Source of the DNA: an uncultured SAR116 cluster alpha proteobacterium
Lineage (GTDB): Bacteria > Pseudomonadota > Alphaproteobacteria > Puniceispirillales > Marisalimonadaceae
Assembly (NCBI GenBank): GCA_902537945.1
Contig: CACBDG010000020.1
Span: 1-32,336 of the forward strand
Direction of reading: 5' to 3'
Length of the DNA stretch: 32,336 bases
The stretch's first letter is position 1, and every line of letters starts with the position of its first letter. Positions 1 to 32,336 of the stretch are shown one piece after another. Position numbers and translations under genes: made by a program. The notes beneath the pieces were generated by a model, which saw only the letters and a program-made list of their open reading frames with translations, ran no database searches and had not been told where the DNA came from.

Positions 1-753
1 GGATACCCTGGAATGCCCGGACCGATGGGTGGCCCAATGGATATGGGCGGTGGAATGATGCCAGGGATGCCTGGTCCGATGGGTGGTCCAATGGATATGG
101 GCGGTGGAATGATGCCTGGTATGCCAGGCCCGATGGCTGGAATGCCAGGTGGACCAGGATTTTACGGTGCACCACCAAATGATGTCCCTTTTCCAGACCC
201 TATTCCTGGAGAAAATAATCCACAGCCAGGCCAAAATCCACTTCCAGGAGGTAATCCTCCTTCAAATACAACAGCAGTTTCTGATTTTTCTCAAGTAACC
301 GGTGGTTATGGTCCACAAATGTTATCAAATGGTGGTTTTAATAACGTTACATTTAAATATGATTCGATAACTGTAGACCAATTAAATGGTGAATTATCTG
401 GTGATACTATTAATGGAGGTTTTTATAGAGGACCAGGTGATTTTAATAGTGGTCCAACTTTTGGATTAGGCCCCAATGATATGCTTAAGTTCGATAATAA
501 TTTAGCAATAAGTTATAATGGAACTTTATTCACAGATTTTGGAAGCGACCAAATTATATCCTCATCTAGTTCTTTTGTTGGTGGAGGTGGTTTAGAATTT
601 GGACTACTTGATATATCTGGTAATATGATTGTAGCCTTTGACAGAGATACAAGTGGTACTTTCAGTGCTGGTGATTTAGTTCTTGATGTTCAAGACGATA
701 TAACTTCAGCTACATACAATGCGAGTAACGATGTGTTTTCATTTAGTGTTTAA
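1..753 (+). CDS. Met/Gly/Pro-rich repeat protein, probable type I secretion substrate (5' partial)
   Basis: The reading frame is open to the left edge, so the N-terminus lies outside the window; the first Met codon inside it, at 13, is part of a repeat and need not be the start. About 50 visible residues are a collagen-like Met/Gly/Pro repeat, followed by a Pro/Asn linker and a roughly 155-residue Gly/Ser/Asp/Asn-rich domain. Near the end is an EF-hand-like calcium loop, DRDTSGTFSAGD (Asp at loop positions 1, 3 and 12), and the protein ends in a short hydrophobic tail, VFSFSV. No cysteine is visible. Type I substrates commonly carry Asp/Gly-rich calcium-binding C-termini and uncleaved C-terminal signals, and an ABC exporter starts 6 bp downstream of the stop, followed by an HlyD-type adaptor. 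Secretion by that pair is therefore my inference. The function of the secreted protein is unknown; metal binding or a surface or matrix role are possible. Confidence 0.7.
   Translation, partial: GYPGMPGPMGGPMDMGGGMMPGMPGPMGGPMDMGGGMMPGMPGPMAGMPGGPGFYGAPPNDVPFPDPIPGENNPQPGQNPLPGGNPPSNTTAVSDFSQVTGGYGPQMLSNGGFNNVTFKYDSITVDQLNGELSGDTINGGFYRGPGDFNSGPTFGLGPNDMLKFDNNLAISYNGTLFTDFGSDQIISSSSSFVGGGGLEFGLLDISGNMIVAFDRDTSGTFSAGDLVLDVQDDITSATYNASNDVFSFSV
13..120 (+). repeat. Two in-frame 54-bp tandem repeats coding an 18-residue Met-rich unit
   Basis: Units 13-66 and 67-120 both encode MPGPMGGPMDMGGGMMPG. They differ at five positions, all synonymous third positions. A degenerate partial third unit (MPGPMAGMPGGPG) follows from 121. 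Six of 18 residues in each unit are Met. The array may extend left of the window. Confidence 0.95.
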
Positions 754-759
754 ATGTAA

Positions 760-2337
760 ATGCAAATTTACAAAAGATTAGATTTATTAATAGCATCTTT
801 TCTAATTAATGTATTAGGTCTTGCAATACCTGTTTATATTATACACTCGATTAATAGGTATTTAGGTAATGGTAACTTCGATACTCTTATTTTTCTAACA
901 ATAACTGTAATAATTGCTGCAATTCTTGAGTATTTAATAAGAAAATATAGAAAATTCATTTTAATAAAAATTAATGATCAAAACCTATTTTCAACAAAAG
1001 AATCACAAAATGAAAATTTTTTTCAAAATGAAACAATTGACAAACAACTAGACCGTTTAAAATCATTACCTAAAAATTACGATTTTAATATGCAGATTAG
1101 CTTTTTAGATGTTCCATATATTCTTCTGTTTTCGGTAGTTATTTATTTATTATCTCCATTAATTTTTTTTTTATATATATTTTTAGCAATCATAATCCTA
1201 ACCATTTCCCTTTTTTATAAAATAAGTAAAAACAAACAATTTAAAAATTTAAATGATTTAAGCAGAGAGTATTCTAGTTACGAACATAAATTCAAAAAAA
1301 ATTTTGTGAATTTTAAAGTCAATTCAATTTTTTATAAAACTTTAAGCACGCTAAAAAAAAAGCAAGTTGAAATTGCTAATAAAAAGAATTTGTTAGATTC
1401 TAATGGTTATGATTTTGAAACTTTAAATTCTCTCTTATTGAATGTTCTTATAATTTTTGTTGTGATGATCTCTTTGATAGAAATTAATAGAGGAGATATG
1501 CAAATATCAAGTATGATTGCTCTTAATATTTTAGTTGTTAGAGCATTATTACCAGTAAAATTAATACCTAATATAATGTTCTATCATAGTTCATTAAATA
1601 ATGACCAAAGATATCAAGATGACATCTCTAAAAGTAAATTAAAATTTGAAAATCTTAAACCCATTAAAAATTTAAAATTAAATAATATTAGTTATATGTA
1701 TCAAAGCTCAACATTGCCATTGTTTAATCAATTTTCAATAGACTTTTCTAAAGGTATAACAACAGTCATAACAGGTGAAAATGGATCTGGTAAGTCAACT
1801 TTGTTTAATATCATTTGTGGTGCATTAATACCTTTAAATGGAACAATACAAATTAATGGGGTAGATATTGATAGAAGACAACAAAATAATATAACTGAAC
1901 TTTCTTCTATTATTAACCAAAATCCTATCTTTAAGAATGATACAATTATGGAATGCATAGAAGACTCAAAGGACAAGCAAGAAAAGTATAATCTTGAAGA
2001 TTTACTAATCAAATGTAATTTAAATTCGTTTTTTGATGATAAAAATGAGGGTGTTAACCTTAATCTTAATAAAAATGAAAATATTATTTCATTAGGGATT
2101 AAAAAAAGAATAGCACTTGCTCAAGTCTTATACAAAGATTCGGAAATAATTATTTTTGATGAACCTACAGAAGGTTGTGATAAGAAAACATGTCAAGTAA
2201 TTTATAATTTCTTAAATGAAAAAATTGCTGAAAATAAAATAGTTATTATTTTTTCAAATGATCCATTTATTATTCAAGGAGCTCAAGTTGTAATAGAATT
2301 AAAAAAAGGCAATAAACCAATTTATTTAAAAAAATAA
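760..2337 (+). CDS. Type I secretion ABC exporter (permease-ATPase fusion) with atypical ATPase motifs
   Basis: This 525-residue protein has an N-terminal transmembrane domain (hydrophobic spans near residues 8-30, 39-58, 118-155, 222-240 and 250-270) followed by an ABC ATPase domain from about residue 305, the PrtD/LapB/HlyB arrangement without an N-terminal C39-type domain. Walker A is GENGSGKST (339-347), a Q-loop reads INQNP, and Walker B is IIIFDEP with D467 and E468. The ABC signature, normally LSGGQ, reads ISLGIKKR (S444, L445, G446, I447). The switch-loop His is replaced: the segment reads IIFSNDP with N500 at the expected place. The D-loop is EGCD rather than SALD. It probably exports the upstream repeat protein with the downstream HlyD-type adaptor. 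A start at 760, 6 bp after the substrate stop, suggests cotranscription. Whether the ATPase hydrolyses ATP normally is uncertain given the three departures. Confidence 0.85.
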   Translation: MQIYKRLDLLIASFLINVLGLAIPVYIIHSINRYLGNGNFDTLIFLTITVIIAAILEYLIRKYRKFILIKINDQNLFSTKESQNENFFQNETIDKQLDRLKSLPKNYDFNMQISFLDVPYILLFSVVIYLLSPLIFFLYIFLAIIILTISLFYKISKNKQFKNLNDLSREYSSYEHKFKKNFVNFKVNSIFYKTLSTLKKKQVEIANKKNLLDSNGYDFETLNSLLLNVLIIFVVMISLIEINRGDMQISSMIALNILVVRALLPVKLIPNIMFYHSSLNNDQRYQDDISKSKLKFENLKPIKNLKLNNISYMYQSSTLPLFNQFSIDFSKGITTVITGENGSGKSTLFNIICGALIPLNGTIQINGVDIDRRQQNNITELSSIINQNPIFKNDTIMECIEDSKDKQEKYNLEDLLIKCNLNSFFDDKNEGVNLNLNKNENIISLGIKKRIALAQVLYKDSEIIIFDEPTEGCDKKTCQVIYNFLNEKIAENKIVIIFSNDPFIIQGAQVVIELKKGNKPIYLKK

Positions 2338-2368
2338 ATTTCTACGAAAATTATTAAGGTTTGTAATT

Positions 2369-3637
2369 ATGTTAAATGCTCAAATAACTATTTTTTTAAT
2401 TTTTTCTCTTTTAGTAACATTCTTGTTTTATGCAAATAAAACTCCCGTTGAGATATCTACAAAAGTTCAAGGAGAAATAAAACCTTTTGGTAATATTAGA
2501 AAAATACAAAATCTTGAAGGTGGAATTATAAAAAAAATCTATGTAAAGGAGGGGGGTAAAGTAAAGCAAGGAGATATTTTATTAGATTTAGAGATGATTA
2601 TTTCAGAATCTGAGGTTGGTGAAATAAATTCAAGGTTAGCTTTTCTTGAAACAGAAATTCTTTTCCTAAAAACAATTCTCAAAAGTGACTCTTCAATTGA
2701 AAATATTAAAATTAATAAAAAATATCCTGAAATTTTTGAAGCTTCAAGAATTCAATATAATTCATTGCAAAGTAAAATTAAAACTAAATTAAAAATAGAA
2801 CAAAAAAAAATTGATAATATTCGTAAAACTAAAAAACTGCTTCAAAGCAAACTTAAAACTAAAAAAAAATCAGTTCAGATAATTAATAGTCAAATTGAAA
2901 TTAGCGAAGATCTTTTAAAGGAAGGAATTACAAGTAAAATCAAACATTTAGATCTAATCAAAGAAAGACAATATATTTTTACTGATATTAATGATATTGA
3001 AAAAGAAATAGATTTTATAAATGCACAATCTATTAATATAAAATTACAAATGGAAAATATTAAAAAAGAACACATATCCCAAATGAGTGAGAAATATCAA
3101 TCTTATATAGAAGAGAGATCAAAATATAATAATAGATTAAAAAGATATAAAGATAAACTATTAAGAAAAGTAATTAAGTCTCCAATAACAGGTATTATTC
3201 AAGAAATTAATTTTTATACTCAAGGAGGAGTTGTCAAGCCTGGTGAAGAAATAATGTCAATAGTTCCTCAAGACGAACAACTTATTGTAGAAGCCAAATT
3301 ACCAGTATCAGATATAGGATATGTTAACTTGTCTCAAGAAGTCTTGGTTAGACTTCAAGGGAATGAAGGTTTTGCATATGCTCCTATAAACGGCAAAATA
3401 AGCTTTATTAGTCCAGATACAAAACCAGGCGAAGAAGGTAAGTCCTTTTATGTAATACATATTAAAACAGACTCAAAGGAATTTTATAATAAAGGAAAAA
3501 ATTATCTTCTTTATCCAGGATTAATTGTTGATTGTAATATAATAGTTGGAAAAAGAACTTTGCTTGAAAATTTTTTAATACCTTTCAAAAGATTTAAAAA
3601 TAACTCCTTTACAGAAAATGTATGGTTTTATAAATAA
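2369..3637 (+). CDS. HlyD-family periplasmic adaptor (membrane fusion protein) of the type I secretion system
   Basis: The 422-residue product has one N-terminal membrane span (about residues 4-21), then a split lipoyl-like domain. The first half is around residues 45-65 (IQNLEGGIIKKIYVKEG, QGDILLDLE) and the second begins near residue 271 (SPITGIIQEI). They are separated by about 190 residues of Lys/Glu/Ile-rich, probably coiled-coil hairpin. A beta-barrel region follows (IVEAKLPVSDIGYV). This is the HlyD/PrtE/LapC architecture, which bridges the inner-membrane exporter to a TolC-family channel. It lies 31 bp after the ABC gene with an AAGG about 10 nt before the ATG. No TolC-like gene is in the window, so the outer-membrane partner is either further left or encoded elsewhere. 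The gene is exceptionally A-rich because of its many Lys codons. Confidence 0.9.
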   Translation: MLNAQITIFLIFSLLVTFLFYANKTPVEISTKVQGEIKPFGNIRKIQNLEGGIIKKIYVKEGGKVKQGDILLDLEMIISESEVGEINSRLAFLETEILFLKTILKSDSSIENIKINKKYPEIFEASRIQYNSLQSKIKTKLKIEQKKIDNIRKTKKLLQSKLKTKKKSVQIINSQIEISEDLLKEGITSKIKHLDLIKERQYIFTDINDIEKEIDFINAQSINIKLQMENIKKEHISQMSEKYQSYIEERSKYNNRLKRYKDKLLRKVIKSPITGIIQEINFYTQGGVVKPGEEIMSIVPQDEQLIVEAKLPVSDIGYVNLSQEVLVRLQGNEGFAYAPINGKISFISPDTKPGEEGKSFYVIHIKTDSKEFYNKGKNYLLYPGLIVDCNIIVGKRTLLENFLIPFKRFKNNSFTENVWFYK

Positions 3638-14826: not shown

Positions 14827-14878
14827 ATTTTTTCCTAATATTCACTTATTATTCTAAAAAATATGATTTATATATAAT

Positions 14879-15904
14879 TTAAAAAGTTGCTTCAACAGAA
14901 ATTAACGTTGCAGATCCATCGTCAGCAGTTTGTCCAGATGTACCGGCTCCATAATCATAATCATGATATGTTAAATATGCATCCAAACCATCAACGATTG
15001 TGTATTTTGCAGATACAGAAGTAACATCTAGTGTTTCACCACCTGAAGTTTCGGTTACTTCTGTACCAGAAACTGCAAAAGTCAGTGCATCACTAACTGC
15101 ATAAGAAATACCGTAATCATTAACTTCTGTTTGAATAGTACCACCTGTTTGATCATCTTCAGCTTGAGCAATGACAGCTGAGAAGGGACCAGAGGAAATG
15201 GTCAAACCCATTGAAGAACTATCAAGACTGGTTGCGCCAACAGTTGCTCCATCGATTGAATTACTAGCGTATGCAATTGTGCCAGTTACATCACCAGACG
15301 TAAATTCATATGATCCAGCAACAACAGTTTCGTCAGCATTTTCCGAGGCAGCTTGCCCTGCATCTTTATGTGAAACCCCTAAGGTTAATCCTCCTATTGT
15401 AGGAAGTTTAAAAGTTATATTATTTTCAGCATCAATAATATTAATTAATGAAGCTTGTTGTGATGTTAAAGATCCAGATTCATTATAAAAAGTTGGAGCC
15501 TTTCCATCAGTTGATCCAGGACCAATTAAATCTGCTGCAGTTGGTGTAAGTTCGTCTCCAACTCCTCCTGTGTTACCTAAACTAAGGAAACCAAAACCAC
15601 CTTCTACAGTAATATTATTTCCATCACTATTAGCAGCTGAAACTGCTTCAGTTCCGTTAGATCTAATAGTTTGGAACATACTAATTGTTAGACCTGAATC
15701 AGTTTTGTTTGTAAAAGCAAGTGCAACTTTATTATCACTGTGAAAATGATCATCAGATGCACCAGCTGTAGAAGTTCCTGGATCTTGATCCAAGTAATGC
15801 CATTGCATAGAACCACTAATACTCACATCAGCGAGAGCTATTGAGCTTGAAAAAGCTAAAGCTGAGGTAGTAAGTAGGCAATTCTTAAAAAAATTTTTCT
15901 TCAT
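14879..15904 (-). CDS. Outer-membrane porin (Porin_4 / alphaproteobacterial type)
   Basis: The 341-residue precursor has a clear signal peptide (MKKNFFKNCLLTTSALAFSS, cleavage after ALA near residue 25). The mature N-terminus DVSISGSMQWHYL is typical of a porin first strand. The rest is an alternating beta-strand pattern rich in Gly/Ser/Thr/Asp with few basic residues, and the chain ends in a C-terminal Phe (SVEATF), the outer-membrane insertion signal. The mature domain matches the Porin_4-type general porins of alphaproteobacteria. AAGGAT lies about 10 nt before the ATG. A strong promoter and a Zur-box-like palindrome sit directly upstream, suggesting repression when zinc is sufficient. If so, this porin may serve zinc or zinc-complex entry. 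The acidic mature protein would be cation-friendly, which is inference. Confidence 0.9.
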   Translation of the reverse strand: MKKNFFKNCLLTTSALAFSSSIALADVSISGSMQWHYLDQDPGTSTAGASDDHFHSDNKVALAFTNKTDSGLTISMFQTIRSNGTEAVSAANSDGNNITVEGGFGFLSLGNTGGVGDELTPTAADLIGPGSTDGKAPTFYNESGSLTSQQASLINIIDAENNITFKLPTIGGLTLGVSHKDAGQAASENADETVVAGSYEFTSGDVTGTIAYASNSIDGATVGATSLDSSSMGLTISSGPFSAVIAQAEDDQTGGTIQTEVNDYGISYAVSDALTFAVSGTEVTETSGGETLDVTSVSAKYTIVDGLDAYLTYHDYDYGAGTSGQTADDGSATLISVEATF

Positions 15905-15934
15905 TATAAATATATCCTTTTTATTAAATTTTAA

Positions 15935-15954
15935 TGTAATGTTATAACATTACA
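15935..15954. promoter_or_regulatory. Perfect 20-bp palindrome, probable Zur box of the porin gene
   Basis: TGTAATGTTATAACATTACA is its own reverse complement over all 20 bases. From memory, the published alphaproteobacterial (Agrobacterium-group) Zur consensus is GTAATGTAATAACATTAC; the central 18 bases here match it at 17 positions. It lies 31-50 bp upstream of the porin ATG. Measured from the predicted start of transcription near 15963, it covers about +10 to +28, where a bound repressor would block transcription. Confidence 0.7.
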
Positions 15955-15969
15955 AGTAGTTTCTTAAAA

Positions 15970-15997
15970 CTTATATAACATTATTCGTTAATGTCAA
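15970..15997 (-). promoter_or_regulatory. Sigma-70-type promoter of the porin gene
   Basis: On the minus strand, TTGACA (complement of 15992-15997) and TATAAG (complement of 15970-15975) are separated by 16 bp, a near-consensus -35/-10 pair about 66 bp upstream of the ATG. An inverted repeat, ACATTA-N5-TAATGT (15978-15994), lies in the spacer and touches the -35, so a second operator contact is possible. Confidence 0.65.
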
Positions 15998-16216
15998 AAA
16001 AAATTACTGATATTTAATGTAATTATTGAAATAATGAAAATAAGTTAAAAAATCGATCAGATATAATATATTTGCATAACATTTTTGCATATATGATTTT
16101 TTATATCAAGGATTACTAGTGAAAAAATATGATTTTCTAGGTATTAGATTTTAAATATTGATTCTATTTTAAGCTATAAGTTAGAATATATTAATAAGTT
16201 ATTAATAGGAATATTT

Positions 16217-17311
16217 TTGAAAATTACAAATTTAGAAACTTATGAATTGCAAATACCATTTTCAACAGGTGTTGAGACATCCGCATCTGATTTTCTTAAA
16301 CAAGATACACTTGATTTTTGTTTAATCAAGATTGATACAGATATTGGCATAACTGGTTGGGGTGACGCTTTTTCTTATAATTGCAGGAAACCAGTTGCAG
16401 AAGCAATAAAACATATGGTTAAACCACTTATTATGGGCAAAAATCCGCTTGATGTTAAACAAATTAACTTTGAGTTACAAAAAAAACTTCATCTTTTTGG
16501 CCGTTATGGCATTACAATGTTTGCAATCAGCGGAGTCGATATAGCATTATGGGACATTTTAGCAAAGCATAGTAACTTGTCTTTATGTCAAATTCTAGGA
16601 TCAGCAGGTTCAAAAGAAATACCTGCTTATGCTAGTTTGTGGCGATATGAAGATATTGAAGCAGTACAAGATAGATGCAATCATGCAAAAAATCTTAGTT
16701 ATAAATATATTAAACTACATGAAATTTATAAATCAGAAGTTAAGGCAGCTAGAGAAGTTCTTGGAGATATTCCTATTATGGTTGATACTAATTGTCCATG
16801 GACAAGAGACCAAGCTAGGCAAACCATAAATGACTGGGAAGAATATAATCTTTTTTGGGTAGAAGAACCTATAAACCCACCCGAGGATTTTGAAGGTTTA
16901 TCAAATTTAAGAACTGAAACGTTTACACCAATTGCAGCTGGTGAAAATGCTTGTACGTCGTTTGAATTCAAAAAAATGTTTGAAGCAGAAGCTGTCGATT
17001 ATGCGCAGCCAAGTGTAACAAAAGTAGGTGGCATCACTGAATTTAAAAAAATCATATCAATTGCAGAATCTTATGGGGTACAGATAATGGCTCATTCACC
17101 TTACTTTGGCCCAGGATTTTTAGCTACTTTACATCTTGTTCAATCAATGCCAAACCCAGGTTTTTTAGAGAGATTTTTTATAGATTTTGAAGCGTATATT
17201 TATCCTAAAGAAATTTTTACACCAAAAGATGGGATTTTTAAAATTTCTGAAGGTGTTGGATTAGGATTTGATCCAGATATTCATGTTTTGAAAGACTATA
17301 TTGTAAAGTAA
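16217..17311 (+). CDS. Mandelate racemase/muconate lactonizing enzyme family protein (enolase superfamily)
   Basis: The 364-residue protein has the alpha/beta capping domain and a TIM barrel. Mg ligands are D190 (MVDTNCPW), E216 or E217 (WVEEP) and E243 (AGENA). Catalytic candidates are K166 in the K-x-H motif IKLHE, with H168 taking the place of the second Lys, and H293 (MAHSP). The Asp that normally pairs with this His appears replaced: the strand reads QPSVTKVGG with S266. The superfamily abstracts an alpha-proton from a carboxylate, giving racemases, cycloisomerases and sugar-acid dehydratases; the reaction here is not determined. The start is TTG with AGGA 6 nt upstream. Its stop is 1 bp from the stop of the convergent DUF3726-like gene, so it is not in that operon. 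Confidence 0.88.
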   Translation: MKITNLETYELQIPFSTGVETSASDFLKQDTLDFCLIKIDTDIGITGWGDAFSYNCRKPVAEAIKHMVKPLIMGKNPLDVKQINFELQKKLHLFGRYGITMFAISGVDIALWDILAKHSNLSLCQILGSAGSKEIPAYASLWRYEDIEAVQDRCNHAKNLSYKYIKLHEIYKSEVKAAREVLGDIPIMVDTNCPWTRDQARQTINDWEEYNLFWVEEPINPPEDFEGLSNLRTETFTPIAAGENACTSFEFKKMFEAEAVDYAQPSVTKVGGITEFKKIISIAESYGVQIMAHSPYFGPGFLATLHLVQSMPNPGFLERFFIDFEAYIYPKEIFTPKDGIFKISEGVGLGFDPDIHVLKDYIVK

Positions 17312-31885: not shown

Positions 31886-32336
31886 TTATTGTGCAGTTAA
31901 GCCTCCATCTACAACAAGACTTGATCCAGTCATAAAACTTGAGTTATCAGAGGATAGAAATAAAATTGTTTTGGCAACTTCATCAGCTGTTCCAAGACGA
32001 CCAATAGGAGTCTGATTAATGCCAGCTGAAATAGATTCCTCTATTGTCATGTCTGGGTTTTGACTAATTCTTGCTTTATATACTTGTGTTCCCATGTCAG
32101 TTTCTATAATACCTGGGTGGACTTGATTAATTCTGATTGGAAGTTTATTTTTCCCAAAATATATAGCCATTGATTTTGTGAAAGTAGTTATACCGCCTTT
32201 TGTCATTGAATATAATGGGTCAAGTTGAGAACCAACAATGCCAGCTACAGAGCTTAGATTAATTATAGTACTTCCAAATTTTGTTTTTTTTCCTGCCTCA
32301 GTCAAAAAGGGTACTAAATATTTAGTACCAAGAAAT
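31886..32336 (-). CDS. Short-chain dehydrogenase/reductase (5' partial, cut by right edge)
   Basis: The frame stays open through the right edge (upstream residues read FLGTKYLVPFL before the TTG at 32305), so the gene continues outside the window and the TTG is not its start. Only the C-terminal 150 residues are seen: the catalytic Ser strand IINLSSVAG, the Y-x-x-x-K helix LYSMTKGG, HPGIIETDM, RLGTADEVAKTILFLSS and MTGSSLVVDGG. The pattern matches cyclohexanol/3-alpha or 20-beta hydroxysteroid dehydrogenase-like SDRs and FabG relatives; no substrate can be given. The cofactor-binding half is missing from view. Confidence 0.9.
   Translation of the reverse strand, partial: FLGTKYLVPFLTEAGKKTKFGSTIINLSSVAGIVGSQLDPLYSMTKGGITTFTKSMAIYFGKNKLPIRINQVHPGIIETDMGTQVYKARISQNPDMTIEESISAGINQTPIGRLGTADEVAKTILFLSSDNSSFMTGSSLVVDGGLTAQ

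Follow-up and report, generated by a model that had tools for sequence, protein, structure and literature searches.

A predicted Zur box at the promoter of a general porin gene in a SAR116 alphaproteobacterium

Regulated entry of metals through the outer membrane

Little is known about the transport of zinc across the bacterial outer membrane, according to the accessible part of a study of Caulobacter Zur, which also describes znuK and znuL as Zur-repressed genes for TonB-dependent receptors (PMC4176598). In the part of a review available to us, the rows of the Zur table list TonB receptors for the outer membrane, and 'oprD' appears once, in the abbreviation list (PMC6103462). The closest known case to the locus described below is MspD of Mycobacterium smegmatis, a porin that is induced when zinc is short or zur is deleted, alongside znuABC; the excerpts at hand indicate that its authors knew of no zinc TonB transporter in that species, and they cite Barnett 2014 for a zinc route made of a porin and ZnuABC in marine Synechococcus (PMC13098993). 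According to the portion available, the possible porin SYNW2224 (Som) of Synechococcus WH8102 was commoner in one no-zinc treatment, namely high phosphate with short-term cadmium (PMC3865332); the Zur regulon of this strain comprises eight genes, and the word porin is absent from the paper that reports it (PMC9337993). Partial texts further describe Pseudomonas OprD, whose transcription follows zinc via CzcR at zinc excess (PMC10393844), and RopAe of Rhizobium etli, a porin-like protein whose level rises when copper is low and which helps copper to enter (PMC6011978). Marine SAR11 genomes, as reported in the section consulted, have kept high-affinity zinc uptake and minimised the uptake of other metals (PMC4771312), which makes zinc entry in streamlined ocean bacteria a live question.

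We analysed a contig from a SAR116 genome (hereafter the window, i.e. the whole stretch of 32,336 nucleotides, which is the entire contig C20 of an assembly, G000, of 1.93 Mb in 49 contigs, 75% complete), in which a palindrome was predicted to place a porin under Zur. If so, the likeness to MspD is that of an outer-membrane porin under Zur; MspD is, however, of the mycobacterial Msp type and its control is experimental, whereas the SAR116 porin is predicted to be of the 16-stranded Gram-negative type and its control is read from sequence. ZnuK and ZnuL likewise provide a Zur-repressed outer-membrane step for zinc, in an alphaproteobacterium among others, but they are energised, gated receptors whereas the SAR116 protein would be a passive porin. 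SYNW2224 comes from a marine bacterium too and brings the idea of a porin working with ZnuABC on zinc, already in print, but it is a cyanobacterial porin. OprD is a porin that responds to zinc, through CzcR at excess instead of Zur at shortage, and RopAe is an alphaproteobacterial porin-like protein raised at metal shortage, the metal being copper and the family Porin_2 instead of Porin_4. MnoP of Bradyrhizobium, which is controlled by the Fur-family regulator Mur, is also an alphaproteobacterial outer-membrane channel for a scarce divalent metal, in its case manganese rather than zinc. As far as the accessible texts go, MnoP is needed at manganese scarcity (PMC9334652, PMC6011978). Zinc sensors themselves are well known, and Zur control of a general porin of this kind is unusual: the literature searched, in which subscription journals are sparsely covered, yielded no description of Zur acting on a Porin_4 protein.

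The palindrome and its copies

The palindrome lies between a TTGACA-N16-TATAAG promoter and the Porin_4 gene (Table 1). The original prediction had described both elements accurately: the 20-bp palindrome is perfect, and it sits just past the predicted transcription start (about 15963), its 18-bp core beginning about 10 nt beyond that start. The box thus adjoins the porin promoter, itself recognised by consensus only, as blocking would require. The core occupies positions -49 to -32 from the start codon, with 31 nt between its end and the porin ATG; the znuA box occupies the identical position, and a TTGACA is found upstream of the box at both genes. The core differs at one of 18 positions from the alphaproteobacterial Zur consensus put forward in the original prediction, in agreement with the 17 of 18 counted there.

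Table 1. Features of the porin locus in the window, and copies of the box in the window genome at up to three mismatches
Feature	Position (strand)	Mismatches to porin box	Remarks
Zur box (predicted) at porin, perfect 20-bp palindrome TGTAATGTTATAACATTACA	15935-15954	0	18-bp core 15936-15953
Porin promoter, sigma-70-like TTGACA-N16-TATAAG	15970-15997 (-)		consensus match only
Promoter hexamers	TTGACA 15997-15992; TATAAG 15975-15970 (-)		
Porin gene, 341 aa, Porin_4 (PF13609)	14879-15904 (-)		predicted 16-stranded barrel
Segment absent at the same site in relatives	14828-16216		porin, promoter, box and leader of next gene; ends approximate
Mandelate-racemase-like gene	16217-17311		divergent
Two boxes upstream of zur		1 and 3	
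Box between znuA and znuC		2	
Box between cobW and folE		2	
Two further places, contigs C7 and C28		3 each	

A perfect 20-bp palindrome is by itself only mildly unusual. The window (29% GC) contains two, where 0.10 is expected per simulated window; the other, GGTACTAAATATTTAGTACC, occupies positions 32310-32329, at the extreme end of the contig. The specific sequence of the box, by contrast, is far beyond chance: under a first-order Markov model, the exact 18-mer is expected about 6.6e-5 times per Mb and the degenerate box 0.006 times per Mb. Within the window, the box is the sole match at up to three mismatches, and three of 100 shuffles gave one.

Allowing up to three mismatches to the porin box, we found seven places in the window genome and five for the reversed pattern, which puts the places on C7 and C28 at background level. 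A stricter, degenerate pattern, derived from five sites of this genome together with sites in relatives, matched five times, versus none for its reverse; as this pattern was partly built on the genome's own sites, more weight falls on the count and control for the whole family, given below. Apart from the porin, the genes beside these five matches are the zur, DUF1636, znu, cobW and folE genes. The palindrome at the porin is of the same sequence type as the boxes found at zur and znu genes in this genome. The further copies implied by the original prediction are thus present, at zur/DUF1636, znuA/znuC and cobW/folE, in this genome and likewise in its relatives, and so is a Zur-like gene of the FUR family.

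Three FUR-family proteins are encoded in the genome. The best NCBIfam model for one of them is Zur (86.5 bits, under the model cut-off of 167); among PDB sequences it matches 4mtd best, an entry named 'Zinc uptake regulation protein' that we take to be the E. coli protein (E 2.2e-17, both CxxC pairs aligned), followed by 7dh7, a FUR-family regulator. For the other two, the best models are Fur and IrrA, below cut-off as well. The zur gene is followed by a gene for a CobW-type GTPase, and the DUF1636 gene is divergent from it. Note that ZnuA (contig C4 of G000; L004:1426-2556, L013:3347-5719) carries a long His/Asp/Lys-rich insertion with repeats like KHDDHDKHDKK, and that downstream of znuA lie genes for an ABC ATPase (LolD-like by look), an FtsX-like permease and a DUF3299 protein, which together with znuA form a possible zinc-linked operon.

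Across the 58 genomes of the family, the degenerate box occurs 75 times, in 36 genomes, and the reversed pattern does not occur. The neighbouring genes are zur, DUF1636, znuA, znuC, cobW or folE for 66 of these boxes, a DsrE-like gene for five, porins for two (in G000 and in a relative, G052) and a ZnuA-like gene (26% identity) for one (G017:C16:21670); for the last (G053:C14), the contig ends 62 nt away and no neighbour is assigned. The unassigned open reading frames that begin within 300 nt of one of the 75 boxes are all of 402 aa or less. As for the palindrome occurring upstream of genes unrelated to metals, which the original prediction named as counter-evidence, the DsrE-like gene bears on it weakly. 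This 125-aa gene (below the Pfam cut-off) has the box upstream in five SAR116 genomes (loci L118, L109, L130, L134 and L142); L142 covers no more than the start of the gene, and in G043 a 21-residue start is all that is present.

Among the 136 genomes of the order, family included, 39 had a match and the reversed control matched once; as all but three of the 39 belong to the family, this version of the motif is largely characteristic of it. The exact 19-mer was found in 107 stretches of a species-level genome collection, three of them from family genomes already counted, and 50 of the 107 have an adjoining CobW-, Zur-, ZnuA-, ZnuC- or FolE-like gene (tblastn). Ten further flanking reading frames, picked by hand and compared with Pfam, comprised two ZinT, three solute-binding proteins, one cytochrome c', one protein with a metallo-beta-lactamase fold, the DsrE-like protein (scoring below cut-off) and two that matched no family. 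A porin was found in none of the 107 stretches using the SAR116-porin profile, which may miss other porin families.

The porin and the history of its locus

The porin scores 89.3 bits against the Porin_4 profile (cut-off 27), and an AlphaFold2 model based on 28 sequences (mean pLDDT 79.5, pTM 0.78) has 16 strands, with residues 111-161 making up an extended loop that includes two short helices and is in part modelled at low confidence; profile score and modelled 16-stranded barrel with a constriction loop are those of Gram-negative Porin_4 proteins. Its best PDB match by Foldseek is Omp32 (E 2.5e-13, TM 0.65 by query, 14% identity), followed by other general porins, e.g. PorB, R. blastica porin and OmpF, and a PDB search by sequence gave no match up to E 1. 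Close relatives of the porin were not found in the named genome collection, from which own-genome records may be left out. H36 and H53 occur in the window porin alone among 28 aligned sequences, and H55 in two of the 28; as read from strand order and residue alternation in the model, H36 and H53 (and H55) are presumed to face the pore near its outer mouth. The total number of histidines, five, is not unusual, and one other of the 28 porins has five too.

The segment that holds the porin is flanked by a DUF2842 gene and the mandelate-racemase-like gene. Using the latter as a marker, we found a match in 25 of the 58 family genomes, that of the window included, and none in the other 33. At 21 of the 24 loci in relatives, an SDR gene adjoins the marker and there is no porin; one of the remaining three is cut by a contig end and two are differently arranged, and a porin at the window's site was seen in none of the 24. 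The porin-free site in the 21 relatives indicates that the segment was probably inserted here.

Relatives of the porin are present in 60 of 101 genomes, its own included. We scanned the upstream DNA of 30 porin loci, again including its own (one had only 141 bases upstream), and found the box in G000 and G052 only, the 28 others being without it. The two closest porins, from G002 (54% identical) and G017 (53%), have no box and a different promoter. Conservation at porin promoters, which the original prediction called for, thus fails at the closest homologues; these are, however, not positional orthologues, and G052 stands as the sole exception. Indeed, the G002 and G017 porins lie between YggS and DUF3576 genes, a porin site common to many relatives. 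At this site (L018, L019 and others), the G002/G017 porin is strongly diverged, as if replaced.

In an unrooted tree of 28 porins, G000 groups with G002/G017 (100/100) and G052 with G046/G048 (100/99); since G000 was flagged for a long branch and unusual composition, its placement deserves less trust than these support values imply. When the DNA upstream of the G000 porin is aligned with its counterpart in G002, G017 or G052, the match does not exceed that of shuffled DNA, whereas the upstream regions of G002 and G017 align well with each other. The boxed porin of G052 thus belongs to a different clade and has a promoter unrelated to that of G000, which we read as each porin having been recruited to the Zur regulon separately; porins may thus have come under Zur on two occasions in the family. 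A boxed porin is rare in the genomes examined (2 of the 58 in the family) and is no conserved trait. G014, for instance, with a Zur 99% identical and a genome 99% complete, has three boxes, none of them at a porin.

Three other ideas were considered and rejected. An ancestral, conserved zinc porin is rejected on the boxless nearest porins, the porin-free site at 21 of 24 loci, the upstream DNA and the tree. A gamma-glutamyltransferase gene near both boxed porins was weighed as a sign of common origin, but in G020, G041 and G007 this gene sits in the same cluster without a porin (in a fourth relative, G024, it is outside the stretch read). Finally, Porin_4 was found once in the window assembly, and the claim that this is the only porin was dropped: neither YggS nor DUF3576 was found in this 75% complete assembly, which may therefore just lack the porin site between them. 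The single TonB receptor detected in the window genome, where incompleteness may hide others, has no box in the surrounding stretch that was read.

Probable zinc control of the porin and competing readings

We consider it very likely that Zur controls the porin. When zinc is replete, we infer, zinc-loaded Zur would bind the palindrome as its operator, which spans roughly +10 to +27, and would thereby block transcription of the porin, as at znuA. When zinc is short, Zur would be released and the porin made together with the Znu importer, the CobW-type GTPase and FolE, so that the pore should be produced mainly at zinc scarcity. More porin would then let more zinc, along with other small solutes, across the outer membrane, and with this greater passage periplasmic ZnuA could capture the metal. 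Repression by zinc, as first proposed, is favored by the Zur-like gene and by the box shared with zinc genes, and disfavored by the absence of the box at the nearest porin homologues. Uptake of zinc through the porin is plausible, and we are less sure of it than of control by Zur.

The strongest competing reading keeps Zur in control of the porin but assigns the pore to general uptake of small solutes, zinc shortage acting as a signal that resources are scarce or that the cell is under surface-ocean conditions. We regard it as a real possibility, somewhat short of an even one: the protein belongs to Porin_4, its 16-strand model resembles Omp32, PorB, the R. blastica porin and OmpF, many relatives have porins of the same family at the yggS-DUF3576 site, and the available text on MspD describes that Zur-regulated porin as less selective in passage (PMC13098993). 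The company kept by the genome's other matches to the degenerate pattern, all at zur, DUF1636, znu, cobW and folE, speaks against it, as do H36 and H53, presumed pore-facing and private to this porin among the 28 aligned. Going further in the direction of zinc, one may imagine that at least two SAR116 lineages independently captured a general porin into the Zur regulon for the outer-membrane step of zinc uptake, in place of the TonB receptors on which other Proteobacteria rely, and that the lineage of the window then gained H36, H53 and H55 at the outer mouth of the pore, where they help to draw zinc in, a scenario that we hold to be doubtful.

That the box arose by chance, is a relic or belongs to another regulator, and has no role at the porin, would fit the boxless nearest homologues and the unexceptional length of the palindrome, but it is improbable given the rarity of the exact 18-mer, the identity of the motif with that of the genome's own zur, znuA and cobW/folE boxes, the position shared with znuA and the boxed G052 porin from another clade. 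Least probable of all, to the point that we give it hardly any credit, is that the box serves the mandelate-racemase-like gene instead of the porin: this gene is divergent and starts 263 nt from the box, but the box is found between the porin promoter and the porin ATG, close to the latter, and at the 21 loci of relatives noted above the gene follows the SDR gene after a short gap, without any porin segment.

If Zur does control the porin, a general porin would provide a passive route for zinc and tie the permeability of the outer membrane to zinc status. The combination of box and porin is also a sequence marker for which ocean transcriptomes sampled across zinc gradients could be searched. 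At the other end of the window (13-3637), a gene for a Gly/Met/Pro-rich repeat protein is followed by ABC-exporter-like and HlyD-like genes, presumably a set of the type I secretion kind, which it resembles.
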